NCBI RefSeq assembly: GCF_000234095.1
Contig: NZ_JH376800.1
Location: 139,502-203,501, forward strand
Direction of reading: 5' to 3'
From: Centipeda infelix ATCC 43532
GTDB taxonomy: Bacteria > Bacillota > Negativicutes > Selenomonadales > Selenomonadaceae
DNA length: 64,000 bases
The notes beneath the pieces were generated by a model. That model ran no database searches and was not told where the DNA came from. It saw only the letters and a list, made by a program, of their open reading frames with translations. Numbering within the stretch: position 1 is the first letter of the stretch; each line of letters begins with the position of its first letter. The position numbers were made by a program, and so were the translations under genes. Shown piece after piece: positions 7,260-36,289 of this stretch.

Positions 7260-7294
7260 TAAGATTAGATTGCAATGTGAAGGGGATAGCCACA

Positions 7295-8077: not shown

Positions 8078-8094
8078 GTGGGAGAGTGAAGAAC

Positions 8095-9426: not shown

Positions 9427-9442
9427 TAAAAGGAGGGGGAAT

Positions 9443-11602: not shown

Positions 11603-13084
11603 ATGAAAATTTGTTTTATAAACCCGCCATTCAAAGCGGAATATGGAAAGTTTTCCCGCGAATCCCGCAGTCCTGCCATCGGCCACAGCGGGGTTCTCTA
11701 CTATCCGCTATGGTTGATTTATGCAGCTGCTTTGTCTGAAAAAGAAGGTTTTCAAATTTCTTTCATTGATGCTCCTGCGCATCCTTTGACGGAGCAGGAA
11801 ACACTTGATATCGTTGCGGATAATGCCGCAGACGCTCACCTATTTGTTTTAGACACAAGCACACCATCCATTTATAGTGATGTGAAATTTGCGTCTGCTC
11901 TGCGTGAGCGATATTCAGACGCTTTCATTGTGCTCGTTGGCACACATCCTACGGCAACTGTTACTGAGACGTTAGAGATAGGGCATGAGGTCAATGCCAT
12001 TGCGAGACGTGAATACGATGTGACGATATTAGAGTTGGCTCGTCTGATCGATGCTGCAGATGGCATACCGTCTGATGAGCGTCTTTCAACCGTGGAGGGG
12101 CTTTCGTTTCGTGCGGCGAATGGTACTGTTGTCGATAACAAGGATCGTGCTCCACTAGAGGATCTTGATGAGATCCCTATGGCGGCGGCGTTCATAAAAA
12201 AACACCTTGATGTTTTTGATTATGTCTTTCCTGCTGCGACATATCCGGCGATACAGATTTTTACCGGTCGTGGCTGTCCTGCACAGTGTAATTATTGTGT
12301 TTATCCTCAGGTAATGCATGGACATAAATATCGAAGACGCAGCGCAGAAAACGTTGTAGGAGAGTTTCAGTACATTGCGGATAACTTTCCGGACGTGAAG
12401 GAAATTGTTATAGAGGATGACACGTTTACGATCGATCGCAAGCGTGTTGTCCAAATCTGTGAAATGCTCATTGAACGTGGTCTTCATAAGCGGTTTCGTT
12501 GGCTGTGTAATGCTCGTGTGGATCTTGACTATGAAACCATGAAAAAAATGAAGCAGGCGGGTTGCCGTCTGCTCATACCGGGAGTAGAAAGTTTCAATCA
12601 GGAGATCTTGCGAAACGTCAAAAAGGGAACGACATTGCAGCAGATCGAAAACTATATGCAGAGTGCAAAGCATGCTGGATTATTGGTGCACGCCTGTTAT
12701 ATGGTTGGGAATCCTGGAGAAACGCGTGCGACTATGCAGGAAACACTGAACGCTGCATTGCGATTTAATACCGATACAGCACAGTTTTTCCCGCTCATTC
12801 CATATCCTGGAACTGAAGCTTACGTGTGGGCGAAGGAGAATGGATACATCAACGGTAGCTATGAGGATTATGTACATGAAGATGGTACTGTGAGCTGTGT
12901 TTTGGATCAACCGGAGCTATCTGCGAACGAGCTCGTTGAGTTTTGTCAAATGGCACGTAAGAAATACTATTTGCGTCCGCGCTACATTGCTCATCGTATT
13001 CGTATGGGGCTTACGGACAAAGAAGATTTCAAGCGTTCGTGGAAAGCGTTCAAGAAACTTCGACAGACAATCTTTAAGAAATAG
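11603..13084 (+). CDS. B12-binding-domain radical SAM protein
   Basis: A 493-residue protein with an N-terminal Rossmann-like B12-binding domain (about 1-150, starting ICFINPPF, with VLVGTHPTATV) and a radical SAM domain. The [4Fe-4S] motif is GRGCPAQCNYC with Cys225, Cys229 and Cys232. GNPGETRATMQETL and FFPLIPYPGTEAY are typical of the BchE/P-methylase-like group. The B12 axial-ligand motif DxHxxG is not evident, so cobalamin may be bound base-off without His, or not at all. In a polysaccharide locus it could methylate or rearrange a sugar, lipid or polyol, but the reaction is unknown. ATG 11603 follows GGGAGGAGGT. Confidence 0.8.
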   Translation: MKICFINPPFKAEYGKFSRESRSPAIGHSGVLYYPLWLIYAAALSEKEGFQISFIDAPAHPLTEQETLDIVADNAADAHLFVLDTSTPSIYSDVKFASALRERYSDAFIVLVGTHPTATVTETLEIGHEVNAIARREYDVTILELARLIDAADGIPSDERLSTVEGLSFRAANGTVVDNKDRAPLEDLDEIPMAAAFIKKHLDVFDYVFPAATYPAIQIFTGRGCPAQCNYCVYPQVMHGHKYRRRSAENVVGEFQYIADNFPDVKEIVIEDDTFTIDRKRVVQICEMLIERGLHKRFRWLCNARVDLDYETMKKMKQAGCRLLIPGVESFNQEILRNVKKGTTLQQIENYMQSAKHAGLLVHACYMVGNPGETRATMQETLNAALRFNTDTAQFFPLIPYPGTEAYVWAKENGYINGSYEDYVHEDGTVSCVLDQPELSANELVEFCQMARKKYYLRPRYIAHRIRMGLTDKEDFKRSWKAFKKLRQTIFKK

Positions 13085-13107
13085 TGGATAGCAGAAGGAG
13101 GCTTAAA

Positions 13108-14265
13108 ATGGCATTGACGACACGGGGAAAAATTGTCATTGCCTCCTGTTTGCGTTACATGCTCTTTTGGACAAAAGCTGTATCGATACAGAAAAAGACA
13201 ATTCTCTTTTTTAGCTTTCAGGGAAAATCATACGCTTGTAATCCAAAGTATATTACAGAGTATATCATGGATGAAAAAAAGAGGCGGGATTCTCCTTTTC
13301 AAGATGTCCGGATCATCTGGGCATTTCATAATCCAGCCCCATATGCGTATTTAAAGGAACGTGGGATACAAGTTGTCGAATACGGTTCTATCGCCTTTTA
13401 TTTAGCCTTTTTTAAGGCACACGCAATTGTCACGAATGCCTCCAACCTTCCCTATCTTCCTGTTAAGCGAAAGCAAATGCTCATGAATACCTGGCATGGT
13501 GGGGGAGCCTATAAGTCGGAGTCATTTGACTCGTCTTTGACCAACTTTCGAAATCGAAACGTAAAGACTTTTTTATCGAGTTCGGAGGTCTTTCAAACGA
13601 TTATGGAAAAAAGCACAAAGCTTCCGAGTTCCTGTTTCCTACCTTGTGGTATGCCGCGCAACGATGTGTTTTTTCATCTGAGCAAAGAGGATATACAAAA
13701 GAAAAAAAGAATATTAGGACTTTCGCTGGATAAGTGTTATCTTCTCTATGCCCCGACCTACCGAGATGATGATGCAATCTATGAGCAACCTGACTTTACG
13801 CGCATTCTGTTAGCACTTGAGGAACGATTTGGGGGACAGTGGGAACTTCTTCTCCGAGGGCATTATAATGCGAAAGATCTTTTTGAAAATGCATCTGAAT
13901 CAAATGTGATTGACCTTTCCTCTTATGATGATATGCAGGATGTGCTTTGTGTTGCTGATGCTGTCATCACGGATTATTCGTCGCTTATTTGGGATTATTC
14001 GATTTTGCATCGCCCTTGCTTTCTTTTTGTTCCGGATGAGGAGCACTATCAGAAGATACGTGGTCTATATCAACCTGTTGAACGGTGGAACTTTCCGTTT
14101 GCTCGTACGAATGAAGAGCTTGTAGAGTGTATTTTGAAATTTGATGAACAAACGAACAGAGAGAATCTTAGGCAGCATCAGAAGGATTTGGGGACGTTTG
14201 AGACAGGGGGGGCATCGGAGACTGCCGCACATCATATTCTGCATTGGCTGAGGAACGAGGTATAG
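13108..14265 (+). CDS. CDP-glycerol/ribitol phosphotransferase (TagB/TagF family), first copy
   Basis: A 385-residue member of the CDP-glycerol glycerophosphotransferase family (GT-B fold, membrane-associated), which moves polyol phosphate from a CDP-polyol onto a growing glycan or teichoic acid. Motifs: NTWHGGGAYK (catalytic-region His), LPCGMPRNDVFF, LLYAPTYRDD and ADAVITDYSSLIWDYSILHRP. ATG 13108 follows AGAAGGAGG and is preferred over GTG 13084. It is immediately followed by a TarI-like cytidylyltransferase, so ribitol or glycerol phosphate is the likely cargo. A run of seven G lies at 14206-14212 near the 3' end. Confidence 0.85.
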   Translation: MALTTRGKIVIASCLRYMLFWTKAVSIQKKTILFFSFQGKSYACNPKYITEYIMDEKKRRDSPFQDVRIIWAFHNPAPYAYLKERGIQVVEYGSIAFYLAFFKAHAIVTNASNLPYLPVKRKQMLMNTWHGGGAYKSESFDSSLTNFRNRNVKTFLSSSEVFQTIMEKSTKLPSSCFLPCGMPRNDVFFHLSKEDIQKKKRILGLSLDKCYLLYAPTYRDDDAIYEQPDFTRILLALEERFGGQWELLLRGHYNAKDLFENASESNVIDLSSYDDMQDVLCVADAVITDYSSLIWDYSILHRPCFLFVPDEEHYQKIRGLYQPVERWNFPFARTNEELVECILKFDEQTNRENLRQHQKDLGTFETGGASETAAHHILHWLRNEV

Positions 14266-14268
14266 TGT

Positions 14269-14991
14269 ATGAATATTGCAGTCATATTTGCCGGTGGCGC
14301 GGGCAAACGCATGAACACGAGGGCAATGCCCAAGCAATTCTTGGAAATGCACGGGAAGCCTGTCCTCATCTATACGTTGGAACAATTTGAAAACCATCCA
14401 CAGATTCATGAGATTGTACTCGTATGTATTGCGTCGTGGATTGATCATGCGAGAAAGCTGCTTCGTGACTATCGTATCCAAAAAGTAATTGATATAGTTC
14501 CCGGTGGGGAGACAGGTCAGGCATCGATATTCGCGGGTCTTTCAAGTGCACGTCGGCGTTCTAAAAGCGATAAAGATGTTGTCTTGGTACATGATGGTGT
14601 ACGACCTCTGATTGATGCGGAGACCCTTACAGCGTGTTTGGATTCCGTCAAGATTCATGGAAACGCAGTGACAACAACGCCTGCCATTGAGACGATCTTT
14701 GTTCAAGCAGAAACAGGTGAGGTTGGTCAGATTTTCAACCGCTCCTGCTGTGCTATGGCACGTGCGCCGCAGTGTTTTTATCTCATGGATCTCTATGAGA
14801 CGCATTTGCGTGCGCAGGCGGAGGGGCGGGATGACTTCATTGACTCGGCGATGATGATGCAGCACTATGGCGTAGAGCTGCATACTGTTACAGGACCAGT
14901 CGAGAATATTAAGATTACAACGCCGACGGATTTTTACCTCTTTCGTGCCTTGTTGGATGCGAAAGAAAATATGCAGATTGTCGGACTTTGA
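14269..14991 (+). CDS. IspD/TarI family cytidylyltransferase, probably CDP-ribitol synthesis
   Basis: A 240-residue CTP-dependent cytidylyltransferase. The N-terminal FAGGAGKRM and MPKQFLEMHGKPVL, then VLVHDGVRPLID, are the IspD/TarI signature; the C-terminal part (VENIKITTPTDFYLFRALL) is shared by TarI. TarI makes CDP-ribitol from D-ribitol 5-phosphate; IspD acts in isoprenoid synthesis. Its position three bases after a CDP-polyol phosphotransferase gene argues for the TarI role. A TarJ-type ribulose 5-phosphate reductase is not adjacent; the following gene is an extended SDR instead. Confidence 0.78.
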   Translation: MNIAVIFAGGAGKRMNTRAMPKQFLEMHGKPVLIYTLEQFENHPQIHEIVLVCIASWIDHARKLLRDYRIQKVIDIVPGGETGQASIFAGLSSARRRSKSDKDVVLVHDGVRPLIDAETLTACLDSVKIHGNAVTTTPAIETIFVQAETGEVGQIFNRSCCAMARAPQCFYLMDLYETHLRAQAEGRDDFIDSAMMMQHYGVELHTVTGPVENIKITTPTDFYLFRALLDAKENMQIVGL

Positions 14992-15037
14992 GGCATTGCC
15001 GTTATAGTCGAAACGATTACTTAGAGGAGAGTTCCTA

Positions 15038-16105
15038 ATGTGGATTGAAAATGCTGTGTTTCATGAGGATATGGAGCATATTGCGAATGCTTCTTTTCTC
15101 CCATGGGAGGAGCTTCAAGGAAAGACGATTCTTATTACAGGCGGAACAGGATTGCTCGGGTTTAACCTGATCTCTGCGCTCTCCTATGTGGCTCTGAAGC
15201 GTGGTATATCCATGCGGATTCTTGCCCTCGTGCGTGATGAAGAAAAGGCAACGGCACGCTTTCAAGAACTCTGGAAGGTGGGAGCTCCGCTTTCTTTTCT
15301 TCTCGGCGATCTTATGAACATCCCTCCGATTGGAGAACCTGTTGACTACATCGTTCATGGTGCAAGTCCGACGGCAAGCCGCTATTTTGCCGAGTGTCCC
15401 GTGGAGACCATACGTGAGAACTTGACGGGAGCTATGACCCTTCTGGAGCTTGCGTGTGAGAAGAAATGCCAATCCTTTCTTTTCCTCTCTAGTATGGAGG
15501 TCTATGGTGCACTTCATCGGAGAGAAAAAGTGGACGAAGGGCATGAGAGCTTTGTCAATACCATGAGTCCTCGTAATTCCTACCCCGAGGCAAAACGCAT
15601 GATCGAGGCACTTTGCTGTGCTTATGCTTCAGAATATGCTGTCCCAGCTAAGGTCATTCGTCTGACGCAGACGTTTGGTGCAGGAGTGTATCGTGATGAT
15701 AATCGCGTATTTGCACAGTTCATGCGAGCGGCACTCCGGGGCGAAAATATTGTTCTAAAAACACTAGGGGGGACAGAACGCTCGTATCTTTATACGGCGG
15801 ATGCAGTCACTGCAATACTCTCTGTTCTCTTTTGTGGCAGTAATGGTGAAGCATACAATGCTGCAAATGAGGAGGCCTATTGCTCAATTCGTGAATTGGC
15901 AGAGTGTGTCGCAAATCTTCCTTGTATTCGAGAGAAGTATGGAGATGCGGTTCGTGTTGTCGTTCGCGAAGATACGTCCGATGCATCTGTCTATCCGCCA
16001 GAACTTTATATGAACCTTGATACAAAAAAGATTCAAACGCTTGGCTGGCAGCCTCATTGGGGGGTGAGGGAGATGTTTGAGAGAATGATAGCGACACAGG
16101 AGTGA
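15038..16105 (+). CDS. NAD-dependent epimerase/dehydratase (extended SDR)
   Basis: A 355-residue extended short-chain dehydrogenase. The nucleotide-binding motif is ITGGTGLLGFN near residue 33; the catalytic serine is in LSSMEVYG and the Tyr-x3-Lys pair in SYPEAKRM. It belongs to the sugar nucleotide epimerase/dehydratase superfamily, but the substrate is not evident. Placement directly after the TarI-like gene raises the possibility that it supplies or modifies the polyol or its nucleotide form (inference only). ATG 15038 follows GAGGAG. Confidence 0.75.
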   Translation: MWIENAVFHEDMEHIANASFLPWEELQGKTILITGGTGLLGFNLISALSYVALKRGISMRILALVRDEEKATARFQELWKVGAPLSFLLGDLMNIPPIGEPVDYIVHGASPTASRYFAECPVETIRENLTGAMTLLELACEKKCQSFLFLSSMEVYGALHRREKVDEGHESFVNTMSPRNSYPEAKRMIEALCCAYASEYAVPAKVIRLTQTFGAGVYRDDNRVFAQFMRAALRGENIVLKTLGGTERSYLYTADAVTAILSVLFCGSNGEAYNAANEEAYCSIRELAECVANLPCIREKYGDAVRVVVREDTSDASVYPPELYMNLDTKKIQTLGWQPHWGVREMFERMIATQE

Positions 16106-19520: not shown

Positions 19521-20990
19521 TTGGATAAAGAAAAGATACAGCGTGCGACAGTTGCAGGAGTCGTGTGGAAATTCTTGGAGCGAGGCTCTTCACAGGTGGT
19601 GACGCTCCTCGTATCGATTGTATTGGCACGACTCCTCAGTCCTGATGAATATGGTATTATCGCGATGACGATGATCTTCATCGCACTCACAGAGGTTTTT
19701 CTAAAAAATGGGATCGGGGATGCCCTGATTCAGCAGGCACAGTATGACGCACGTTCCTTCTCAACGATGTTCTATGTGAGTCTGGGGATCTCAGGCCTGC
19801 TCTATGTGATTCTCTATGCGGCAGCTCCATATTTTGGCAGTCTAATGAACAGCGATGAGCTTCCCCTTGTTTTGCGGGTGCTGGGGCTGCGCCTCCCCTT
19901 CTCCGCGATGTATTCCATTCAGCAGGCGTATGTATCACAGCAAATGGTGTTTCGAAAATTGTTCCCATCGACACTGTCGAGTACCGTTGTTTCCGGCTTT
20001 GTCGGACTGGGGCTTGCCTATATGGGGTACGGCGTTTGGGCACTCGTTGGGCAAAATCTTACAGCAGTTGCTATTCGCACAGCATCGTTGCAGCTGCTCA
20101 TTCCGTGGAGACCGTCTCTGGTTTTTGACGGGGCTGCCTTTCATCGACTCTTTTCCTTTGGTTGGCGTGTGCTGGTGACGAATGTGATCAGCACGGTGTT
20201 TAGTGAGATGAGGGGGTTCTTCATCGGGCGTTTTTACAGTCCTGCCGATCTTGCCTTTGCAAATCAGGGCGCACGGTTTCCACAACTGATTGCGGGAAAT
20301 ATATCAACGGCGTTTTCGGATACCCTGTTCCCTGCGTTCTCTCATTTAAGAGAGGATCGAAAACAACTGCGTGGAGCCGCCTCGGCGGCGATGACAACGG
20401 GTGGGTTTCTCGTTGCGGGGCTTATGGGCGTTCTGGCGGGGACGGCGGATTCACTCATTCATGTTGTTTTGACGGATAAATGGATGGCCTGTGTGCCTTA
20501 TCTCCAATGCGTATGCATCTTGGAGTTGTTCGCATTTCTCAGTGTAGTCAACCTTCAGACCCTTCTTGGTCTTGGTCGTGCAGATATCGTTCTAAAGCTG
20601 GAGCTCATCAAAAAACCGGTTTATTTTCTGTTGATTTCGATTGGTGTTATGTTTAGTCCCTTAGCAATTGTGGCGTTACATGCACTCTATAGTATCATTG
20701 GGTTTTGTATGAATGCTGTACCCAACCGTAAGCTTATTGACTATCATTTAAGTGATCAATTGCGTGATGTCTTGCCATCAATTTTCCTTGCTTTAATCTT
20801 GTCAGGGTTACTGCAATATACACAATATATTCTCCCACATGAGTTCTTTTATCTATGTATGGAGGGGCTTGTCGGCATCACCCTGTATATTGCTCTTGGA
20901 AAGTTGTTTTGTTTGCGTGGTGCTGAAACGCTGTGTCAGGGAGCATATACACGCATTAAGAATGTTCGACATCGTGGGGATGATAATTGA
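19521..20990 (+). CDS. Wzx-type lipopolysaccharide/polysaccharide flippase (MOP superfamily), part A
   Basis: A 489-residue integral membrane protein with about 12-14 helices. The N-terminal ATVAGVVWKFLERGSSQVV and LLSPDEYGIIAMTMIF are characteristic of the WzxC/PST (polysaccharide_synt, MviN-like) family. It should flip lipid-linked repeat units across the inner membrane. The start is TTG 19521 behind TAGGAG (19509-19514). A second, unrelated-looking flippase is encoded at 45816. Confidence 0.87.
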   Translation: MDKEKIQRATVAGVVWKFLERGSSQVVTLLVSIVLARLLSPDEYGIIAMTMIFIALTEVFLKNGIGDALIQQAQYDARSFSTMFYVSLGISGLLYVILYAAAPYFGSLMNSDELPLVLRVLGLRLPFSAMYSIQQAYVSQQMVFRKLFPSTLSSTVVSGFVGLGLAYMGYGVWALVGQNLTAVAIRTASLQLLIPWRPSLVFDGAAFHRLFSFGWRVLVTNVISTVFSEMRGFFIGRFYSPADLAFANQGARFPQLIAGNISTAFSDTLFPAFSHLREDRKQLRGAASAAMTTGGFLVAGLMGVLAGTADSLIHVVLTDKWMACVPYLQCVCILELFAFLSVVNLQTLLGLGRADIVLKLELIKKPVYFLLISIGVMFSPLAIVALHALYSIIGFCMNAVPNRKLIDYHLSDQLRDVLPSIFLALILSGLLQYTQYILPHEFFYLCMEGLVGITLYIALGKLFCLRGAETLCQGAYTRIKNVRHRGDDN

Positions 20991-21012: not shown

Positions 21013-22185
21013 ATGCTAAAGAGAATTGCGAAGATGATTTTGCCCGCAGGTCTCCGCAGAACTTTACGTAGAGGAGCGGAAATGACGGTGGCTTATATTC
21101 TGTCTCCATTATCCGTGAAAAAAAATAAAGTTGTCTTTATCAACGTTGCCGGGCGGGGGTTTGGCTGTAATCCGAAATACATTGCCTTGGAAATGCTACG
21201 ACAACAACTTCCCGTCGATCTCGTATGGCTTGTATCAAAGGATGATCCTGCAATACCGCACGAAGTTCGTCAAGTACGCTGGGGCAGTCTTAGCATGCTT
21301 TATGAACTTGCGACGGCCGGTGTCATCATCACAAATGTCAAGTCAAGGATTCCCTTCATCAAGAAAAAGGAGCAGCTTCTCATACAGACATGGCATGGTT
21401 CGAATGCCTATAAATGTGTCGAGGCAGAGATTATAGAAGAACAGGAATGTGACTATATTAAAGACAGTAAGGTAAACTCCGCAATCACGGATGTATTTAT
21501 CTCAGATAGTCCATATACATCACAGTGGTATCGGGACGCGTTTTGGTGTCATTGCGATATATGGGAAACCGGGATGCCGCGCAACGATGTCTACTGTAAT
21601 ATGTCAGCTGAGGCAATGGAAGCCCTCAGAAAGAGCCTTGGCATTGCACAAGGAAAAAAGATTTGGATGTATGCGCCAACGTTCCGTGACTTTGTGGAGC
21701 AGGATACCTACAAGTTGAATTTTGAAGCTGTACAAACTGCTTTGCAGCAGCATTTTGGCGGAGAGTGGGTAGGACTTCTTCGCCTGCATCCCATCGTAAA
21801 TCCGGATCTTTTTCCTCCTTCGGATGCAGAGATGATCAATGTATCCTCTTTCGGCGATCCTCAGGAACTCTTTGCTCTGACGGATGCACTGATCTCTGAT
21901 TATTCTTCTTTAATCAATGATTTCATTATGATGAAAAAACCTGTTTTTCTCTACACGCCCGATTATGATAGTTACATTGCGCGGGAGCGTCAGCTGAAGC
22001 AGATCTACTTTGATCTTCCACTCCGACGGAATCGCACAGATGACGAACTTTGTGCGGACATTTTGGCGTTTCATAGCGAGAAATATCAGGAAGATATGAC
22101 ATCCTACTGGAAGAACTATGGTTGTATATTGGATGGTAAGGCAAGTGAGCGCGTTGTTGAACGCTTAAAAAAGTTTATCTTGTAG
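21013..22185 (+). CDS. CDP-glycerol phosphotransferase (TagB/TagF family), second copy
   Basis: A 390-residue CDP-polyol phosphotransferase. Motifs: IQTWHGSNAYKCVE, WETGMPRNDVY, WMYAPTFRDF, LLRLHPIVNPD and TDALISDYSSLINDF. It is homologous to the enzyme at 13108 but clearly diverged. Three genes resembling the CDP-2-glycerol pathway follow at once, so it is the best candidate to transfer glycerol 2-phosphate to a repeat-unit sugar (inference). ATG 21013 follows TTGGAGG; the frame is open upstream into the flippase gene but that extension is not needed. Confidence 0.85.
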   Translation: MLKRIAKMILPAGLRRTLRRGAEMTVAYILSPLSVKKNKVVFINVAGRGFGCNPKYIALEMLRQQLPVDLVWLVSKDDPAIPHEVRQVRWGSLSMLYELATAGVIITNVKSRIPFIKKKEQLLIQTWHGSNAYKCVEAEIIEEQECDYIKDSKVNSAITDVFISDSPYTSQWYRDAFWCHCDIWETGMPRNDVYCNMSAEAMEALRKSLGIAQGKKIWMYAPTFRDFVEQDTYKLNFEAVQTALQQHFGGEWVGLLRLHPIVNPDLFPPSDAEMINVSSFGDPQELFALTDALISDYSSLINDFIMMKKPVFLYTPDYDSYIARERQLKQIYFDLPLRRNRTDDELCADILAFHSEKYQEDMTSYWKNYGCILDGKASERVVERLKKFIL

Positions 22186-22204
22186 TCATGCGAGGTGGTC
22201 AGGG

Positions 22205-23239
22205 GTGGAGTTTTCAGATAATCTGTTGATTTCGGATCGTGCAATCTTCCGAGTAAGAGAGCTTCTGCAACGGGAAGGCTCCTACAGTAAAATTCTTTTA
22301 CTTACGGGACCTCATGTAGATCGACTCTATGGAGCTGTTGTCTTGCGGCAGCTCGCAGAACTAGGAGATGTTCTGAAAGTCCATGTCGAAAAAAATGAGA
22401 TTTCATTCGCTATGCAGCTTGCTGAGGATGTGATCACGCAGGAGATTGATCTTATTGTAGGGCTCGGCGGAGGCAAGGCTCTTGATGTCAGCAAATATGC
22501 GGCATATATTGCAAAGAGACCGTTGCTTTCGATACCTACTACAATATCAAACGATGGGATTGCTTCACCAATTGCGGTTCTTAAGCGTGTCGATGGAAAG
22601 CCTATGAGTCTTGGGTGTCGGATGCCGAGCATGATGGTGCTCGATACGGAGATCCTTCTGCACAGTCCGCGCGCCTTGATTCAGGCAGGGATTGGAGATA
22701 CAATATCGAATTATATGGCACTGCGCGATTGGAAGCTCGCATGTCGCCGTGGAAAAGATACGATGAATGGTTATGCCTATCTGATGTCACAGACGTCCCT
22801 TGATGTTCTGATGCGTACGGAGTTCGATGATATTTCTCCGGGCTTCATTGAGGTTCTGGCACGTTCACTTGTTCTCTCCGGTATTGCTATGTCGCTTGCC
22901 GGAAGCAGTCGCCCGGTAAGCGGGTCGGAGCATCTCTTTAGTCATGCTCTGGACTATTTTTTGCAGCTCAATAATCTTCATGGGCTGCAGACCGCATTGG
23001 GAACCGTTGTCGTGTTGAAACTCATCGGTGAAGATGCCTCCGCAGTTGAACGGTATTTACGTCGCTTCCATGTGGACATTAATCCTGCGCATATGAAGAT
23101 TTCTGAAGAGAATTTTGTTTACTGCCTGCAGCATGCTACTGATATGCGTAAACATCGCTATACATATTTGCATGAAGTGGATCTCGATACGGAGCAGTTA
23201 AAGCGTCTGTATGCACAACTACTGGAGGAATGGAAATGA
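22205..23239 (+). CDS. Iron-containing dehydrogenase of the glycerol-1-phosphate dehydrogenase group (Gtp1-like)
   Basis: A 344-residue protein of the AraM/EgsA-type sn-glycerol-1-phosphate dehydrogenase family. NAD-binding GLGGGKALDVSKYAA and PTTISNDGIASP sit in the N-terminal half; metal-ligand regions are AGIGDTISNYMALRDW and SGSEHLFSHALDYF, with a later LHGLQTALGTVVVL. In pneumococcal 23F-type capsule loci a reductase called Gtp1 makes glycerol from dihydroxyacetone for CDP-2-glycerol synthesis (recalled from the literature). A true G1P dehydrogenase is the alternative. It starts with GTG 22205 after GAGGTGG and overlaps the next gene by four bases. Confidence 0.75.
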   Translation: MEFSDNLLISDRAIFRVRELLQREGSYSKILLLTGPHVDRLYGAVVLRQLAELGDVLKVHVEKNEISFAMQLAEDVITQEIDLIVGLGGGKALDVSKYAAYIAKRPLLSIPTTISNDGIASPIAVLKRVDGKPMSLGCRMPSMMVLDTEILLHSPRALIQAGIGDTISNYMALRDWKLACRRGKDTMNGYAYLMSQTSLDVLMRTEFDDISPGFIEVLARSLVLSGIAMSLAGSSRPVSGSEHLFSHALDYFLQLNNLHGLQTALGTVVVLKLIGEDASAVERYLRRFHVDINPAHMKISEENFVYCLQHATDMRKHRYTYLHEVDLDTEQLKRLYAQLLEEWK

Positions 23240-23943
23240 AAGCATTAATTTTAGCAGCGGGCATCGGATCAAGACTCGCTCCCCTGACGGATGACTTGCC
23301 GAAGTCTCTTGTTCCGGTGAATGGAATGCCGATTCTCTTCAAGCAGATTGAGAACCTTCATCAAAATGGGATCATAGATATATCTATTGTTACGGGCTAT
23401 CGAGCAGACCTTTTGAAGAATGCGGTCAAAGAGAAGTATTCAGATGTCCAGTTTATCGATAATGCGGACTACCTAGATACCAATAATATGTATTCGGCAT
23501 ATTTGGCACGAGACTTGTTTTCCGACACGCCTTTTCTCATGATGAATGCAGATGTGTTTTATGATGCTTCTGTTATCCATTCGTTGTTACAGTATCCTGC
23601 AGAAAGTGCCATTGTTACGGATATTGGAAACTATCTTGACGAGTCGATGAAGGTGATCGAGAAGGACGGAAGACTGGTTAAGATCTCAAAGGCGATCACG
23701 AAAGAAGAGGCTCTTGGTGCTTCAATTGATGTCTATAAGTTTTCGGCAAATGCGGGATCATTATTTTTTAACGCATGTAAAACTTATATTGAGGAAAAAA
23801 AAGAATTGAAGCTATGGAGCGAAGTCGCTCTTGATGATATTCTTAAGAAGAGCATATTTAAGGCATGTCCATTGAATGGTCGATGGATGGAGATAGACAA
23901 TCACGACGACTTAAAAGTGGCAGAAGCCATGTTCAAGGAGTGA
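23236..23943 (+). CDS. Nucleotidyltransferase, LicC/Gtp2-like cytidylyltransferase
   Basis: A 235-residue nucleotidyltransferase. MKALILAAGIGSRLAPLT with PKSLVPVNGMPIL is the NTP-transferase signature; the NMYSAYLAR segment and a C-terminal EIDNHDDLKVAEAMF resemble phosphocholine/glycerol-2-phosphate cytidylyltransferases of pneumococcus. The expected reaction is CTP plus a small phospho-alcohol giving the CDP-alcohol. ATG 23236 is chosen because GGAGG is seven bases upstream; ATG 23230 is too close. Neighbours point to glycerol 2-phosphate as substrate, but phosphocholine cannot be excluded. Confidence 0.72.
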   Translation: MKALILAAGIGSRLAPLTDDLPKSLVPVNGMPILFKQIENLHQNGIIDISIVTGYRADLLKNAVKEKYSDVQFIDNADYLDTNNMYSAYLARDLFSDTPFLMMNADVFYDASVIHSLLQYPAESAIVTDIGNYLDESMKVIEKDGRLVKISKAITKEEALGASIDVYKFSANAGSLFFNACKTYIEEKKELKLWSEVALDDILKKSIFKACPLNGRWMEIDNHDDLKVAEAMFKE

Positions 23944-23946
23944 GCG

Positions 23947-24771
23947 ATGGGATATTTGGACTGTTTTCACGTTGATGCCGCTCTCTTAAAATCAAAGAAG
24001 CTTTTCCTTTTCGATATGGATGGAACGATCAATCAGGAAGATGTTTTGATTCCAGGAGCGAAGGAACTTCTGGAGGAGATTCAGAGCGTAGGCAGTCGAT
24101 TTGTCTTTATTACAAACAATTCGTCGAAGTCTGTGCGTGATTATATTGAAAAAATGAGACGTCTTGGGATTTCGACCAATACAGATCATTTCTTTACAGC
24201 CGGACAGGCAACGGCTCTTTATTTGCGGGAATACCATGTGGACGCTCTGATCTATTGTATGGGGACACACTCATTTCGAGAAGAACTCCGTTCCTACGGG
24301 TTAAGAATCACAGAAGTTCCAAATGCAGGAGCTAAGGTTGTGGTTGTGGGATTTGACACAGAATTAACCAGTGAGAAAATAAGAAATACATGCGAAATGC
24401 TCACAGAAGATGTTGCATACATTGCGACGAATCCGGATTTAGCGTGTCCTGTGTCCTTTGGTTTTATCCCCGATTGTGGTGCAATATGCCGGATGATTGC
24501 CTGTGCTGTTGGAAAAGAGCCGATTTTCATAGGAAAGCCCTCCCGCATTATGGTCGATGCGGTTGCAGAGAAATTTCAGATTCCATTAGCAGATATTGTT
24601 GTCGTTGGTGATCGTCTGTATACGGATATTGCAACCGGTTTGAATGCGGGGGTTGATACAGTCTGTGTATTGACAGGGGAGGCAACGTTGGATGACATTC
24701 GGGATGGAGACATCCGTCCGACGTTCACATTAAACAGCGTAAATGATCTCTATCGTGCCTTAACTGTATAA
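23947..24771 (+). CDS. HAD-IIA family phosphatase/phosphotransferase (NagD-like; Gtp3-like)
   Basis: A 274-residue HAD-superfamily protein. Motif I is LFDMDGTIN (nucleophile Asp at about 19), motif II VFITNNSSKS, and motif III/IV IGKPSRIMVD and VVGDRLYTDIATGLNAG, with the C2a cap of NagD and p-nitrophenyl phosphatases between. In pneumococcus 23F a HAD protein (Gtp3) was reported to form glycerol 2-phosphate; gene order here (dehydrogenase, nucleotidyltransferase, HAD) matches that trio. AAGGAGTGAG precedes ATG 23947. A plain phosphatase is the conservative reading. Confidence 0.75.
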   Translation: MGYLDCFHVDAALLKSKKLFLFDMDGTINQEDVLIPGAKELLEEIQSVGSRFVFITNNSSKSVRDYIEKMRRLGISTNTDHFFTAGQATALYLREYHVDALIYCMGTHSFREELRSYGLRITEVPNAGAKVVVVGFDTELTSEKIRNTCEMLTEDVAYIATNPDLACPVSFGFIPDCGAICRMIACAVGKEPIFIGKPSRIMVDAVAEKFQIPLADIVVVGDRLYTDIATGLNAGVDTVCVLTGEATLDDIRDGDIRPTFTLNSVNDLYRALTV

Positions 24772-24804: not shown

Positions 24805-25755
24805 ATGTTAATGCGTGCACTCAGAAAAATGAAGCGATGGGGACGTGTGGCGTTTGATTACACGAATACTACGAAGGATGGAGCTGTTTGCTATCATAAT
24901 TGGTGGCCGTGTAATTATGAGGAAGAGTGGTTTCATCGTTTTGTTGTACAAAATATTGGAACAGAACGTTGCTATCATTTCTTTTCTGTATTTGGTCCAC
25001 GTATTGCGTTGACGCTGCCAACACCGAATAAAGTTTTTTTCTGTGGTGAAAATGTGCATAACGCAGAGTGGCCCTATAAAAGCTATCAAGATCATGCACT
25101 TGGAGATGTCAAGCTGGCTCTCGGATATGATGATATACAGGATGAACGATATATTCGATTTCCTCTGTGGTTGCTCTATATGTTCGATCCTGTTGTTGAC
25201 CGATATGCCATCCGTGAGCGAATTGAAGAAATCAATCATGCAGAGAATACAAGAAAATATGAATGTGTATTGATTTCCAGACACGATAAGTGGAATATGC
25301 GTGGTCCAATTTATGATGCATTGAAAGATCATTTGGCTATTTCCTGTGCTGGGAAATGGAAGCAAAACACTGATGAACTGTGGACGGTTTACAATGATGA
25401 TAAACCACGCTATCTAAAAGAGTTTAAGTTTAATATCTGCCCGGAGAATTTTGACACGCCGTATTATGTTACAGAGAAGCTGTTTGAAGCCTTTCGGAGT
25501 GGAACAATTCCTATTTATGCAGGCGGAGGCGATCATCCGGAGCCGGAAATTGTGAATCGAAGCGCACTACTCCTTTGGGAGCGAGGACAAAGTGATCATA
25601 GTGCCTTGGTACAGGAAGTTATACGGCTCGCACGCGATGAGATATACTATGATAAATTTGTACATCAGGTTCGTTTGCTTCCGTATACGGAAGAGTTTGT
25701 TTATGAACAGTTTTCATCGCTGAAAGAGCGGTTGTTGCAGATAAGACGAGGGTGA
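24805..25755 (+). CDS. Glycosyltransferase family 10 (alpha-1,3/4-fucosyltransferase type)
   Basis: A 316-residue protein with the GT10 C-terminal signature: FNICPENFDTPYYVTEKLFEAF then RSGTIPIYAGGG, the GDP-fucose binding segment shared with Helicobacter FucT and animal enzymes. Upstream are KVFFCGENVH and LISRHDKWNMRGPIYDAL, typical of the N-terminal GT-B half. The expected reaction is transfer of L-fucose from GDP-fucose. GDP-fucose synthesis genes (gmd, fcl, manC) follow within the locus. ATG 24805 is used; ATG 24811 is possible. Only a weak AGTGGA lies upstream. Confidence 0.83.
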   Translation: MLMRALRKMKRWGRVAFDYTNTTKDGAVCYHNWWPCNYEEEWFHRFVVQNIGTERCYHFFSVFGPRIALTLPTPNKVFFCGENVHNAEWPYKSYQDHALGDVKLALGYDDIQDERYIRFPLWLLYMFDPVVDRYAIRERIEEINHAENTRKYECVLISRHDKWNMRGPIYDALKDHLAISCAGKWKQNTDELWTVYNDDKPRYLKEFKFNICPENFDTPYYVTEKLFEAFRSGTIPIYAGGGDHPEPEIVNRSALLLWERGQSDHSALVQEVIRLARDEIYYDKFVHQVRLLPYTEEFVYEQFSSLKERLLQIRRG

Positions 25756-25805
25756 ACGCACTCACATCAGGAAATCCACACTGATTGCTCTTGGAGGTAT
25801 ACGTT

Positions 25806-28427
25806 ATGCAGAAAAGTTTGGAGATGCTACATGATCGTTTGACTAGCCCCATCGGGCATCCTGCTCTTTTACTTGGTGCGGGCTTTTCGCTTGGAGCATT
25901 CAATATTGATCAACAACCTTTGGTTTTAGGAAAACGTTTGACTCAAGAACTATATGAAAATATACTGATTCCTAGAATTAAAGAAATTCCAGATTATGAG
26001 CGAGATTGTGAAAATGTGGATTTAACTGTTCGACAAGGAGATTTGAAAAAGTTTTGTACATGGTTAAGGGAGTTCGGATTAGAAAACGAACGAGATGAAT
26101 ACATAACCCGTCGTTTGAAAGTGCATGGATGGAGAGAGGATGTTTCCTTTGAGACTTTGGCAGCGTACCCATGGCGATATATTTTTACGCTCAACATGGA
26201 TGATTTGGTTGAAAAAATCTATGAAAAAATTGGCAAGAAGCTAGAAGTCTGGAATCGTGATTGTCAAAATTATGTGGAAAATCCAAAAGAGACAATCTTG
26301 GTAAAACTACATGGGGATGTTAACTGTACCGTTCCATCAGGTTCGTATCGATATATATTGGACGAAAAAGAATATCGCAACTTTACAGCAAGTGATGATC
26401 GAATGTTACAGAAATTTGGTGAGGTGTACGTTTCTAACGATTTGATTATTTTAGGGACGCAATTTCAAGAAAATGATTTGGAGATCGCTTTAATATCATT
26501 GTTACAAAATAAGTGTAATAATGAAAAGATACAATATTTCTTCGTGTCGCCAGAGATATCAAGCAGATCCCTTATAAGAGAGATAGATAAAAACAATAAC
26601 TTCCATCACATAAAAATGACAAATATCGAATTTCTAGCATATATGAATCAATTAAAGATAAAAGCACAATCAACGAAAAAGCTCTTGCTAAGCAATTCGT
26701 TTTCAGACTGGAATTCTGAGCTGCAAGATGCTGCTGACAGTGAAAAAACATACGAATTATACAACGGTGCTGATCCTTGTGCGGGGGATTTCTTTCATGA
26801 GATTGATATACCAAGAAGTATGCCGCAAGACGAAAGGAAGAAGAGTTTTGTATCTATTCAAGAGAATTTTGAAAAAAATCTTGTAGAGAAAAAAACAGTA
26901 TTAGTAACGATTCACGGTGAATCGTTTGTTGGAAAAAGCTGTTTGGCAATGAGGCTGTTGACACTCTCTGCTGCGAACGGATATCAGAGTTTTTATACGA
27001 AAAATATTGACCTTCATATTATTGATAAGGTCAAAGAGTTCTTGCGCAGTCAAACAGATAATTCTAAGATTGCGTTCTGTATGGAGAATGCGGCCTTATT
27101 CTATAGTATATTTGATGAGTTGTTTGATGAAGCTTTAGGAAAATCTGTTGTTTTTATTACCACAGCATTGGATTCTGACCACAATACAAAACAATATACA
27201 TTACAAAATATTTATGATAAGAGACTTGATTATTATATTAATGAAAGAATCAGTGATAAAGAGGCGTGGGATACCTACACAAAACTTGCTTCTCACAATA
27301 GACTAGGACGTTTACAGTCTGCGACAAATAAACCGAGTAGTATTAGAAAAAACATACGAGATATTGGAGATCTTATTGATGTTCTTTGGTATGCACACGA
27401 AGGAAGACGGTTTTCCAGTTATTTCGAGGGGTGGTACAAGCATAAGCGTCAAGAAGAACAAATTGAAGTGTTTGAAATTTTGACGTATTATGCATCACTT
27501 GGATGTGAGTTTTCCATATCAGATTTACCGATGATTGCACTAGCTGTTAACAGAAAAAATTTTGATTATAAGAAGTTTGAAATTTCATTTTCTGATTTTT
27601 GGACGTCCAAATCCAAGAGACCTCGTTTACGTTATGTACGATTGTTTCGCGATATTGTTGTAAAGACAATACCTGTAAGCCAGAGAATTGAATGGTTACG
27701 GTTTTTAATAGTATTCTTGGCCAAACGAATAAAAGAGAGGGAGCAGTCGCGGAACAGCCTGATGTTTGAATCTGTTACAAAAATAAAAAATATATCGATG
27801 CAAAAGAAGATAACCAATGAAGATATCCTTCAGTTGTTTTCCAACGTGGAGTCAGAATGTCAACATCTAAGCTATTATTGGATACAACGTTGTATTATAT
27901 ATAGCAAATGTGAAAAATTTGAAGATGCTGCAAATTCTATTGCCAACGCAGCGTCTGCACGTAAATACCGTACCTATCAAATTATTCACGCGGAGGCAAA
28001 GAATGATATGGCAAGAGGTATATGGTGTATAAAACATGATCCAAACCATGCGGATGAGTTTTTCTTTCGTGGGCGGGATCAAGTGGTTTCTCTTATTGAA
28101 GAAAGAAACAAATATCGTAGTGCTTTAACATTTTCGGTACACACATATGTAAATATGGCAATGAAATATTATAATGAGAAAAAGATAGAACCCGATATCA
28201 ACGAATGGAATCAACTTTTGGAGGCGGTTTCCCTCTCTGTATATCATCTATCTGCTAAAGACAAAATCTTTTTGAAGCTGATAGAGGACTTTGTAAAATT
28301 TGCGGAACAAAACGGTAAGAGGGATCTTGCTGCGCCCTTCCTCCGTGAGTTGGGAAAAAAACCAAGGATACCTATGGATGAGTCTGATTATGATATAGAC
28401 TCATTACCCGATGTCGAGATCAAATAA
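25806..28427 (+). CDS. SIR2-like domain plus P-loop NTPase protein, candidate single-gene defence system
   Basis: An 873-residue multidomain protein. The N-terminal SIR2_2-like domain (about 15-240) carries LLLGAGFS (21-28), FTLNMDD with Asn130, KLHGD with His169 and ILGTQFQENDLE (215-226), so the NAD-hydrolysis residues appear intact. A P-loop follows (GESFVGKS, 371-378, in VLVTIHGESFVGKSCLAM), as in STAND-type ATPases. The C-terminal ~400 residues are helical and TPR-like (around 690-860). SIR2 effectors joined to STAND NTPases (Avs5-like) and DSR proteins deplete NAD during phage infection in other bacteria. Codon use is distinctly AT-rich against its neighbours, indicating transfer. ATG 25806 follows TTGGAGG. 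Confidence 0.78.
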   Translation: MQKSLEMLHDRLTSPIGHPALLLGAGFSLGAFNIDQQPLVLGKRLTQELYENILIPRIKEIPDYERDCENVDLTVRQGDLKKFCTWLREFGLENERDEYITRRLKVHGWREDVSFETLAAYPWRYIFTLNMDDLVEKIYEKIGKKLEVWNRDCQNYVENPKETILVKLHGDVNCTVPSGSYRYILDEKEYRNFTASDDRMLQKFGEVYVSNDLIILGTQFQENDLEIALISLLQNKCNNEKIQYFFVSPEISSRSLIREIDKNNNFHHIKMTNIEFLAYMNQLKIKAQSTKKLLLSNSFSDWNSELQDAADSEKTYELYNGADPCAGDFFHEIDIPRSMPQDERKKSFVSIQENFEKNLVEKKTVLVTIHGESFVGKSCLAMRLLTLSAANGYQSFYTKNIDLHIIDKVKEFLRSQTDNSKIAFCMENAALFYSIFDELFDEALGKSVVFITTALDSDHNTKQYTLQNIYDKRLDYYINERISDKEAWDTYTKLASHNRLGRLQSATNKPSSIRKNIRDIGDLIDVLWYAHEGRRFSSYFEGWYKHKRQEEQIEVFEILTYYASLGCEFSISDLPMIALAVNRKNFDYKKFEISFSDFWTSKSKRPRLRYVRLFRDIVVKTIPVSQRIEWLRFLIVFLAKRIKEREQSRNSLMFESVTKIKNISMQKKITNEDILQLFSNVESECQHLSYYWIQRCIIYSKCEKFEDAANSIANAASARKYRTYQIIHAEAKNDMARGIWCIKHDPNHADEFFFRGRDQVVSLIEERNKYRSALTFSVHTYVNMAMKYYNEKKIEPDINEWNQLLEAVSLSVYHLSAKDKIFLKLIEDFVKFAEQNGKRDLAAPFLRELGKKPRIPMDESDYDIDSLPDVEIK

Positions 28428-28514
28428 AATTGTTTGATCTGTCTTGCAGTTACTATATCTGGGGTTGCACATATTTGCTACGATACAACTTTTTTTGAAA
28501 GGATTGAACTTTCT

Positions 28515-29543
28515 ATGAAAAAAGCATTTATTACAGGACTTACTGGACAGGATGGCTCGTATCTTGCGGAACTTTTACTTGAAAAAGGGTATGAGGTGTA
28601 TGGGATTATCCGCCGTGCAAGTGTTGCGAATACGTCTCGTATTGATCATTTGATGAAGGATGTTCATGTCTACTACGGGGATATGATTGACTCGTCGAAC
28701 CTCAGTCGTTTGATGGAGAAAATTCAGCCGGATGAGATTTACAATTTGGCTGCACAGTCTCATGTGCAGGTTTCCTTTGATGTGCCCGAGTTTACGGCTG
28801 ATGTGGATGGCCTTGGCACGCTTCGCTTGTTGGACGCAATTCGTGAAATGCGGAGCGGCACGCGTTTCTATCAGGCATCGACGAGTGAACTTTTTGGAGG
28901 GCTTCCTGAGACTGCGCCGCAGAGTGAGAAGACCCCGTTCTATCCGAAAAGCCCGTATGGCGCAGCGAAACTCTATGCCTACTGGATCACGGTCAACTTC
29001 AGAGAGGCCTATCATCTGTATGCGTGTAATGGTATCTTGTTCAACCATGAATCACCGCGCCGTGGTGAGAACTTTGTGACGAAGAAGATTACGCGCTCAG
29101 TTGCACGTATCGCGCAGGGGCGACAGGATAAATTGTCTTTGGGCAATCTGGACGCAAAGCGTGACTGGGGATATGCAAAGGATTATGTCGAGGCGATGTG
29201 GCTGATGCTGCAGCAGGACGAGCCGGATGATTTCGTGATTGCAACGGGCGAGACGCATACGGTGCGTGAGTTCACGGAACTTGCCTTCCGTCACATAGGT
29301 GTGGAGCTTGCATGGGAAGGCGAGGGCGTTGAAGAGAAGGCATATGATCGTAGGACGAACCGCCTTCTTGTCGATGTCGATCCGAGATTCTTCCGTCCCG
29401 CCGAGGTGGAGTTCCTGTGGGGAGATCCGACCAAGGCAAAGGAAAAACTGGGGTGGAGGAATAAGACAAGCCTTGCACAACTGGTCGAGATTATGATGGA
29501 TTATGATATGAAGTTTGATAATTATGGCGGTGATCACAAATGA
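28515..29543 (+). CDS. gmd: GDP-mannose 4,6-dehydratase
   Basis: Converts GDP-D-mannose to GDP-4-keto-6-deoxy-D-mannose. The 342-residue extended SDR has [13 protein letters not shown] at the N-terminus, the active-site STSELFG, the Tyr-x3-Lys motif [11 protein letters not shown], and [17 protein letters not shown], which is diagnostic for Gmd. ATG 28515 starts the Rossmann fold; GAAAGGATT lies about 12 bases upstream. The gene overlaps fcl by four bases (ATGA), and the two enzymes act in succession. Confidence 0.93.
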
Positions 29544-30451
29544 TTTTATTAACAGGCGCTACAGGGTTTCTTGGAAAGCGCGTTGCAAAAAAACTGGAAG
29601 AACGCGGCTTGGAGTTTCATAAAACTTCTCAATCGTTGGGGACGGATTTGCGGGACGCATCTGCTGTTCATCAGCTGTTTGCGGAAGTGAAGCCGGATAA
29701 GGTTATCAACTGCGCTGCATATGTGGGCGGTATTCAGTTTGGTTATAAGCACCCTGCCGAGCTGTTTCGTAATAATCTGCTGATGACAATCAATCTCCTC
29801 GATGCCTGTAGGGATTTTTCTGTACAGCGTCTTGTCAATCCAATTTCTAACTGTGCCTATCCGGCACGTGCGACCTTCTTCAAGGAGGATGAGTTTTGGG
29901 AAGGGGAACTCCATGAGTCGGTAATGGTCTACGGACATGCGCGTAAAACCTCATGGGTCGGTGCGTGGGCGTACGAAAAGCAGTACGGTCTGGACACGCT
30001 GAATTTGATTCTTTCCAATATGTATGGGCCGGAGGATCATTTCGAGGAAGAACGTTCTCATGCACTCGGGGCACTGATTATGAAGATTGTAAAGGCAAAG
30101 CGTGAAAATCTTCCCGAGGTCATTGTATGGGGCTCCGGCAAGCCCGTGCGCGAATGGCTCTATGTTGATGATGGTGCGGAGGCGATGGTGCGTGGCTTAG
30201 ATGCACCGCATTCAGAGCAGCCGGTGAATATTGGTGTTGGCAAGGGAATTTCCATCATCGATATGGCAAAGATCATCCAGGAGGATGTTGGTTATGAGGG
30301 AGAACTGAAACTCGATCCTACGAAGCCGGATGGTGCACCGTATAAGACAGTCGATGGAACGAAGGGCGGCGAGCTCCTTGGATGGCGACCGGAGAAAGAT
30401 TTTCGCCTCGGGATTCGGGAGACCGTTCAGTGGTATCTGGAGCATTGTTAA
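29540..30451 (+). CDS. fcl: GDP-L-fucose synthase
   Basis: Bifunctional epimerase/reductase making GDP-L-fucose from the Gmd product. The 303-residue SDR has [13 protein letters not shown], the [10 protein letters not shown] region, NPISNCAYP and the catalytic Tyr-x3-Lys in YGHARKTSW. Typical Fcl sequence [16 protein letters not shown] follows. It is coupled to gmd by ATGA. With manC at 33052 and gmd it completes mannose-1-phosphate to GDP-fucose, presumably for the GT10 enzyme at 24805. Confidence 0.9.
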
Positions 30452-34846: not shown

Positions 34847-36289
34847 TTGTACGTGCATAGGGAAGGCTGGATTTCGTCACACGCGTCCATTATATGTGCG
34901 GCGTTTCTTTTTGTTTTTTTTGATTACATTGCAATTCTTTTTGCAGAATATTTTGCGTTTGGACTGCGCGATGTGTATGGGAATTTGAACGGGACAACCT
35001 ACCTTCTTCCTGATGAGTTCGTTTTTCTTTGGATCCCGATTGTCTTTATCGCATTTCTTGCCATCATGCAGACATATACAAAGATGCAGCCGATTTTAGA
35101 AACGGTGCGGCAGATTTTTTATGCGATTCTCTATGCGCTCATTGCGTGTATTCTGGCACTTTATTTTGTGAAGGAGAGTTTGCTGGTTTCGCGCCTTTTT
35201 GTCGTCTTATTTGGATGTTTTGCGTTGTTCAATATTTACCTCGGGCGTTATATCCTCATGAAGTTCCTTAAAATAAACAATGCACTATCAAAGCCCGTTA
35301 TCCTGATCGGTGCCGGGAAGACGGCAGAACTTGTCCTTGAATTCTTTGACGGAGACCTCGGATACCGCTACAAGGTCGTTGGTATTCTGGATGATAAGCC
35401 AGTCTCGGAGCTCCTTCCGAAGAGATTTTTGCTTCTGGGGAGTGTGAGTGATGCCGAGACAATTGTTCGGGATTCCGGGATCAAAACGGTTATTATAACG
35501 GCACCGGGGATGGATAGCAAACGTTTGGAGAAGCTTGTCTCTGCGATCCAGCCGCTCGTTCGTGATATTCTCTTTGTACCTGATCTTATGATGCTGCCGC
35601 TCGCGCATGTTGGCGTTGAGCCGTTTTATACAGAGAGAGTCTTTATGCTCAGCATACGAAACAATCTCGCACGGCGCAGAAACCGTCTGGCAAAGCGTAT
35701 TTTTGATCTCGTTGCAACGATTGTCGGTGGCCTTTTGATTTTTCCGATCCTTTTCGTGTTGGCCGTGCTTGTGGGGATTGATAATAAAGGGCGCGTTATT
35801 TTCGCACATCAGCGTGTTGGGCGCAACGGAAAGATGTTCCCCTGCTATAAGTTTCAGTCGATGATACCGAATGCACAGGAACTCCTTGAGGAATACCTTG
35901 CAAAGAATCCAGAAGCAAGAAAAGAATGGGAAGAGTCCTTTAAACTTACGAATGACCCTCGTGTTACCAAGCTGGGAGCATTCCTGCGTAAAACGAGTCT
36001 TGATGAACTGCCGCAGCTATGGAATGTCCTGATGGGCGATATGAGTCTTGTCGGTCCGCGTCCGATTATTACGAAAGAGATCGAACGCTATGGGGACAAT
36101 ATCCGTGAGTACTATATGGTTCCTCCTGGCATTACGGGTATGTGGCAGGTGAACGGACGCAGCGATACGACCTATGAGGAGCGCGTTGCTATGGATACGT
36201 GGTATGTGCGCAACTGGTCGGTTTGGATTGATCTGGTATACTTGTTTAAGACGGTAAAGACTGTATTTACGGGAAAAGGTGCGTATTGA
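34847..36289 (+). CDS. Initiating polyprenyl-phosphate sugar-1-phosphate transferase, part B
   Basis: A second WbaP-type enzyme, 480 residues. It has N-terminal membrane helices, a full Rossmann CoA-binding-like domain ([24 protein letters not shown]), and a C-terminal sugar transferase domain from about 283: [53 protein letters not shown] and [14 protein letters not shown]. The last motifs are close to galactose-1-phosphate transferases of the WbaP group. TTG 34847 follows AGGGGAT. It is only distantly similar to the enzyme at 9443, so each may start a different glycan. Confidence 0.88.

Follow-up and report, generated by a model that had tools for sequence, protein, structure and literature searches.

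A putative supply of CDP-activated glycerol phosphate in a polysaccharide locus of Centipeda infelix

Does a diderm Negativicute carry, inside a polysaccharide locus, its own supply of activated glycerol phosphate, and on which hydroxyl would the phosphate sit? The question is raised by a 64,000-nucleotide stretch of Centipeda infelix ATCC 43532 (contig NZ_JH376800.1, positions 139,502 to 203,501; here the window), in which a first-pass annotation had described a four-gene module at positions 21013-24771 resembling the pneumococcal pathway to cytidine diphosphate (CDP)-2-glycerol. The module was borne out: a glycerophosphotransferase, a glycerol-1-phosphate dehydrogenase-like enzyme, a nucleotidyltransferase (NTase) and a HAD-IIA protein are all open plus-strand frames in that interval, their types confirmed by family matches (Table 1). 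We consider it very likely that the block provides CDP-activated glycerol phosphate and was acquired horizontally; the same kind of cassette occurs in many Bacillota and some Bacteroidota. As to the product, block order and the separate grouping of the HAD proteins make CDP-2-glycerol our best bet, a reading of the sequences that we favour with some reserve.

Gene content and the proposed route

The spacing of the four genes is operon-like, with 19 nt between transferase and dehydrogenase, an ATGA overlap between dehydrogenase and NTase, and 3 nt between NTase and HAD gene. The transferase frame is readable from 20839, its likely ATG being at 21013. Dehydrogenase and NTase probably share the ATGA at 23236-23239, which is preceded by GGAGGA, and the NTase family alignment begins at Met 23236. 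The block extends one gene upstream of the four, to a Wzx flippase ending at 20990.

The description of the NTase as LicC-like proved fair. The sequence alone matches LicC (1jyk) across residues 2-100, a profile of 57 NTase relatives matches it over its whole length (128 bits, with PntC 6pd1 next), and the structures nearest to the AlphaFold model (predicted local distance difference test, pLDDT, 97.6) are likewise LicC and PntC, both of which put cytidine monophosphate on phospho- or phosphono-alcohols. No TIGR01518 glycerol-3-phosphate cytidylyltransferase scored over the cut-off in the genome (36.1 against 165.4 bits; other kinds were not sought), and a TagD-type supply of CDP-3-glycerol was rejected on this ground.

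The gene list given for the 23F capsule locus in PMC3493582 names wzx, wchX ("putative glycerol phosphotransferase"), gtp1 ("putative glycerol-2-phosphate dehydrogenase"), gtp2 ("putative nucleotidyl transferase") and gtp3 ("putative phosphotransferase"). When the window families are set beside that list, the order dehydrogenase, nucleotidyltransferase, phosphotransferase of Gtp1-Gtp2-Gtp3 is found again, directly preceded by wzx and a glycerol phosphotransferase. The analogy drawn by the first-pass annotation stands in type and order and reaches further, to wzx; a supply of CDP-glycerol is well supported, with the 2-position as a proposal.

In the route that we envisage, the dehydrogenase would reduce dihydroxyacetone phosphate (DHAP) to sn-glycerol 1-phosphate (G1P), as its active-site residues suggest. 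The HAD protein would then, via an aspartyl-phosphate, move or transfer the phosphate to give glycerol 2-phosphate, by analogy with Gtp3, which we take to be a HAD protein as well. With cytidine triphosphate, the cytidylyltransferase would form CDP-2-glycerol, from which the PF04464 transferase would place glycerol 2-phosphate onto a lipid-linked repeat, to be flipped by the adjacent Wzx.

The dehydrogenase, the HAD protein and the position of the phosphate

The best NCBIfam match of the dehydrogenase is the G1P dehydrogenase (G1PDH) model NF002022, with 264.9 bits against an equivalog cut-off of 413; six related dehydrogenases score between 182.7 and 282.4 bits, and the glycerol dehydrogenase model fits the window enzyme far less (73.9 bits). 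The residues common to the archaeal G1PDH structures 4rgq and 5fb3 are present in the window enzyme and kept in the 33 module dehydrogenases compared with them (Asp117, Asp165, Arg236, Ser239, Glu242, His243, His259 and Arg318), while position 235 is Ser in 30 of the 33 and otherwise Thr. Because the archaeal signature is kept and the glycerol dehydrogenase model is so much weaker, we propose that the window enzyme reduces DHAP to G1P.

Since a G1PDH model is the best family match, one may ask whether the enzyme serves archaeal-type ether lipids, its position in the block being accidental. The genome holds no match to PcrB (PF01884), a family matched in 7 of 14 control genomes (5 over cut-off), and the gene grouping recurs in distant genera; the ether-lipid role was rejected for the missing PcrB, and we hold it to be extremely improbable. 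The closeness to sn-glycerol-1-phosphate lipid enzymes, which the first-pass annotation had named as one finding that would speak against it, exists in part: family score and active-site residues are closest to G1PDH, but the score lies below the NF002022 cut-off and PcrB is missing.

In a quick tree, 33 of the 34 module dehydrogenases longer than 280 residues group together (99), along with the cut module row L137. A Bacteroides dehydrogenase (L130) falls outside on a long branch, so that the enzyme of this lineage may be a separate acquisition; L130 and its Bacteroidales kin retain TR-x-TSG-x-EHLISH. A plasmid search with the dehydrogenase returned 7 records at 33.7-39.1 % identity, one of which (H2) adjoins a CDP-alcohol phosphatidyltransferase.

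This same dehydrogenase makes CDP-1-glycerol a live rival, although one that we judge unlikely. Here a true G1PDH and the cytidylyltransferase would activate G1P itself, the HAD protein clearing glycerol 3-phosphate or wrong substrates, or regulating. Consistent with it, residues shared by archaeal G1PDHs are retained: Arg236 is present in all 33 module rows and in all 19 rows of HAD-less NTase-dehydrogenase pairs, and Asp117, Asp165, His243 and His259 are retained as well. The 19 pairs make up a second class, in which a more distant NTase stands beside the same kind of dehydrogenase with no HAD within the available flank. When loci were sought by the dehydrogenase, an NTase adjoined in 8 of 29, and these eight all belong to the ten loci with E<=1e-40 (G151 weak). 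Among Bacilli loci reaching E<=1e-28 it did so in 17 of 22, or in 16 of 21 once G449 is set aside, the centre genome of the Bacilli search, where the cassette was already known. Of the 29, the 19 loci with a weaker dehydrogenase all lack an NTase, which speaks against the rival, as does the way in which HAD protein and NTase keep together.

This cohesion appears in both trees. In the NTase tree of 96 rows, whose bootstrap had not settled, one 66-row clade (bootstrap 100 / Shimodaira-Hasegawa approximate likelihood ratio test, SH-aLRT, 99) holds all 43 HAD-linked rows, L093 and L107 being counted among them; none of the other 30 rows, most of them with flanks of only some 0.5-6 kb, is HAD-linked. 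The 19 HAD-less rows form a separate NTase group (91/81), in which L066 and others drew long-branch warnings. In the HAD tree, a quick one without bootstrap, a single branch (SH-aLRT 94) divides the 43 module HADs from 29 other HAD-IIA proteins. All 43 have Glu at position 139, as does only one of the 29 (L220). Asp176 was rejected as a module mark, being present in 24 of the 29 others, and so was PDCG in the cap, common even to 5 outsiders; Glu139 was retained. D23, D25, T56, K197 and D222, which we take to be the catalytic HAD residues, are present in 72 of 72 rows. A HAD step committed to the pathway fits the cohesion and Glu139 better than housekeeping does.

The HAD model (pLDDT 96.3) resembles the 4-nitrophenylphosphatase 1vjr (Z 36.2, root-mean-square deviation, rmsd, 1.6, 259 aligned) as well as NagD, chronophin and the glycerol-phosphate phosphatase Rv1692 (4i9g; Z 31.8, rmsd 2.0, 261 aligned). 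Because the fold is shared with Rv1692, a glycerol-phosphate substrate would be reasonable, a shared fold by itself being no proof of function.

Recurrence of the cassette

An NTase-profile scan of named genome contigs gave the best 80 of 125 confirmed loci. After removal of duplicates and addition of loci from genome searches, 66 close-class rows (>200 bits) were available besides the window, 56 of them with at least 1.3 kb on each side. Dehydrogenase and HAD gene both adjoin the NTase in 28 of these 56. Four of the 28 full-core loci are from Bacteroidales, in the order NTase-HAD-dehydrogenase, and the dehydrogenase frame of one (L133) contains a recorded stop. Within the same family as the window host, Selenomonas ruminantium ATCC 12561 carries the three-gene core twice (NZ_AUJE01000002 and NZ_AUJE01000014) at 57-63 % identity; one of these loci (L062) has the window order flippase-glycerophosphotransferase-dehydrogenase-NTase-HAD, with identities of 62.6 % (dehydrogenase), 62.0 % (NTase) and 59.3 % (HAD).

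Several observations weigh against CDP-2-glycerol or against the pneumococcal parallel. The position of the phosphate is not visible in any of these sequence and structure data. The cassette is separable: among the 56 loci, the NTase has only the HAD gene beside it in 8, the dehydrogenase but no adjacent HAD in 5, and neither in 15. In two of the five (L093 and L107) a HAD gene lies 2.3 kb further on; a third, L063, is glycerophosphotransferase-dehydrogenase-NTase with no HAD in 20 kb. In L054 and L060, loci where no NTase was found, a HAD-IIA gene (39-40 % against the window HAD) stands close to a weaker relative of the dehydrogenase, so CDP chemistry is not the only setting in which HAD and dehydrogenase are linked. 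Between the window transferase and that of L062, identity is only 24 %, over 180 residues. Among 284 presumed Streptococcus genomes, none has a dehydrogenase relative at E<=1e-20, a search that had no positive control in the genus, and none has a close NTase match; 114 of the 284 match at E<=1e-12, mostly LicC-like over the first 100 residues, the best (1.8e-21) having 33 % identity over the full length. These genomes gave no sequence link between the window and pneumococcal Gtp1-3. Finally, in work of Wang and colleagues from 2010, which PMC3716944 cites, Gtp1 reportedly reduces dihydroxyacetone to glycerol, Gtp3 makes glycerol 2-phosphate and Gtp2 makes CDP-2-glycerol; the G1P step proposed here disagrees with that Gtp1 reaction.

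The loci with neither partner bear on a further alternative, which we think improbable, that what the module activates is the phosphate of another small polyol or alcohol and that dehydrogenase and HAD protein yield something other than glycerol phosphate. Six such rows (L075, L095, L102, L110, L116 and L128) form one NTase group, and, among the matches listed (for the NTase, 25 of 40 families), the NCBIfam equivalogs for dehydrogenase and NTase all score below cut-off. The adjoining PF04464 transferase, the intact G1PDH signature and HAD relatives acting on glycerol phosphate argue instead for glycerol.

Other users of CDP-alcohols may occur around the cassette. A CDP-alcohol phosphatidyltransferase adjoins NTase-HAD in L094, L100, L101 and L133 and is possibly one of them. 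Three HAD-less pairs from Bacilli (L239-L241) are flanked by such an enzyme at one end and, at the other, by an ABC exporter with a second such enzyme; Pfam recognises the exporter in L240 only, and in L239 the first phosphatidyltransferase is assigned from likeness alone. These three loci also carry a GT2 gene; we met no description of such a glycerol-phosphate system, for which the literature was not searched.

A wider proposal may be put forward tentatively, with more doubt than confidence. The closer relatives of the window dehydrogenase, a large bacterial "G1P dehydrogenase" group, would feed CDP-glycerol chemistry and not lipids; the HAD-less pairs would make CDP-1-glycerol, thought absent from bacteria; and, in cassettes with a HAD gene such as that of the window, the HAD-IIA protein would be a glycerol-phosphate mutase moving the phosphate from O1 to O2, giving a CDP-2-glycerol route from G1P and not from dihydroxyacetone. 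The residue and synteny data suggest a concrete role for one set of bacterial G1P dehydrogenases, together with a HAD mechanism that can be checked.

The surrounding locus and known systems

The window holds a polysaccharide locus with glycosyltransferases. In 2-kb bins of the window, guanine plus cytosine (GC) content is 35-53 % over 8-56 kb (42-48 % over 8-26 kb), flanked by 54-64 % over 1-8 kb and 56-58 % over 56-64 kb. In 13 congener genomes there was no HAD-IIA match at E<=1e-15 and no close-class NTase (best 8.9e-25, 36 %). The block was probably acquired horizontally.

Table 1. Block genes and neighbouring features of the window
Feature	Coordinates	Strand	Basis or remark
Wzx-type flippase, first of the five-gene block	19521..20990	+	PF13440 family match; position corresponds to that of wzx in 23F and of the flippase in S. 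ruminantium L062
CDP-glycerol-type glycerophosphotransferase, wchX position	21013..22185	+	PF04464 Glyphos_transf, E 8.6e-71
Glycerol-1-phosphate dehydrogenase-like enzyme, Gtp1 position, GTG start	22205..23239	+	PF13685 Fe-ADH_2; NF002022 best NCBIfam match
LicC/PntC-type cytidylyltransferase (NTase), Gtp2 position	23230..23943, likely start 23236	+	PF00483/PF12804
HAD-IIA phosphatase/phosphotransferase, Gtp3 position	23947..24771	+	TIGR01460 146.5 bits (cut-off 100.15); catalytic residues intact; Glu139 present
Poly_export gene, outer-membrane type	7277..8077		PF02563
Wzz-type gene	8086..9426		
Bac_transf priming transferase	9371..10831		PF02397
Second PF04464 transferase, then IspD-like cytidylyltransferase, then short-chain dehydrogenase/reductase (SDR)	13084..16105		PF04464, PF01128, PF01370
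GT10 fucosyltransferase-like gene	24805..25755		directly 3' of the HAD gene
880-residue protein with SIR2-like domain	25785..28427		PF13289
GDP-mannose dehydratase and epimerase-family gene	28434..30451		accompanies the GT10-like gene
Bac_transf priming transferase	34847..36289		PF02397

Selenomonadaceae are diderm, and the polysaccharide setting that the first-pass annotation had given the module fits: the host belongs to the same family as S. ruminantium ATCC 12561 and the locus has a Poly_export gene. The two Bac_transf genes suggest that there are two repeat units, or else two loci side by side. The SDR that follows the second PF04464 transferase has as its best PDB match the CDP-6-D-glucitol synthase HS5.17 (8v4g/8v4h, 144 bits). 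Because pairs of an IspD-like cytidylyltransferase and an SDR are predicted in PMC10918830 to make CDP-glucitol or CDP-mannitol, the locus may additionally attach hexitol phosphate. The SIR2-like protein, perhaps a defence gene, lies in the 2-kb bin of lowest GC (35 %). Elsewhere in the genome (G000 C3:189863-196634), a 27 % relative of the NTase is found near two weak PF04464 matches.

Glycerol 2-phosphate is, to our knowledge, rare in known glycans. PMC9912281 lists it as a glycan substituent, with no source named alongside. No report of it in Selenomonas or other diderm glycans was recognised among the top-ranked literature matches, which is no proof of absence. A probable glycerol 2-phosphate cassette is present in Selenomonadaceae, a few Bacteroidales and many unstudied Bacillota, among which several come from animal guts, and the cultured two-copy strain S. 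ruminantium ATCC 12561 makes its product testable.

Among known systems, wchX-gtp1-gtp2-gtp3 of pneumococcal serotypes 15A and 23F, associated with CDP-2-glycerol, shares with the window its enzyme types and order, and wzx in front (PMC3493582); the host belongs to another class, and the likeness is known from gene types and order. The loci of S. ruminantium ATCC 12561 differ from the window in their distant transferase and in the surrounding genes. Archaeal/AraM G1P dehydrogenases have their active-site residues in common with the window enzyme, which is set apart by its sub-threshold family score and by a genome without the PcrB partner. LicC and PntC are the closest solved structures to the NTase, yet share 22-27 % identity with it in structural alignments and have different substrates. 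TagD-type glycerol-3-phosphate cytidylyltransferases, a CDP-glycerol system exemplified by Cps3B/7B of A. pleuropneumoniae (PMC8262930), supply a TagF-like transferase as the window NTase would, but belong to another nucleotidyltransferase family.

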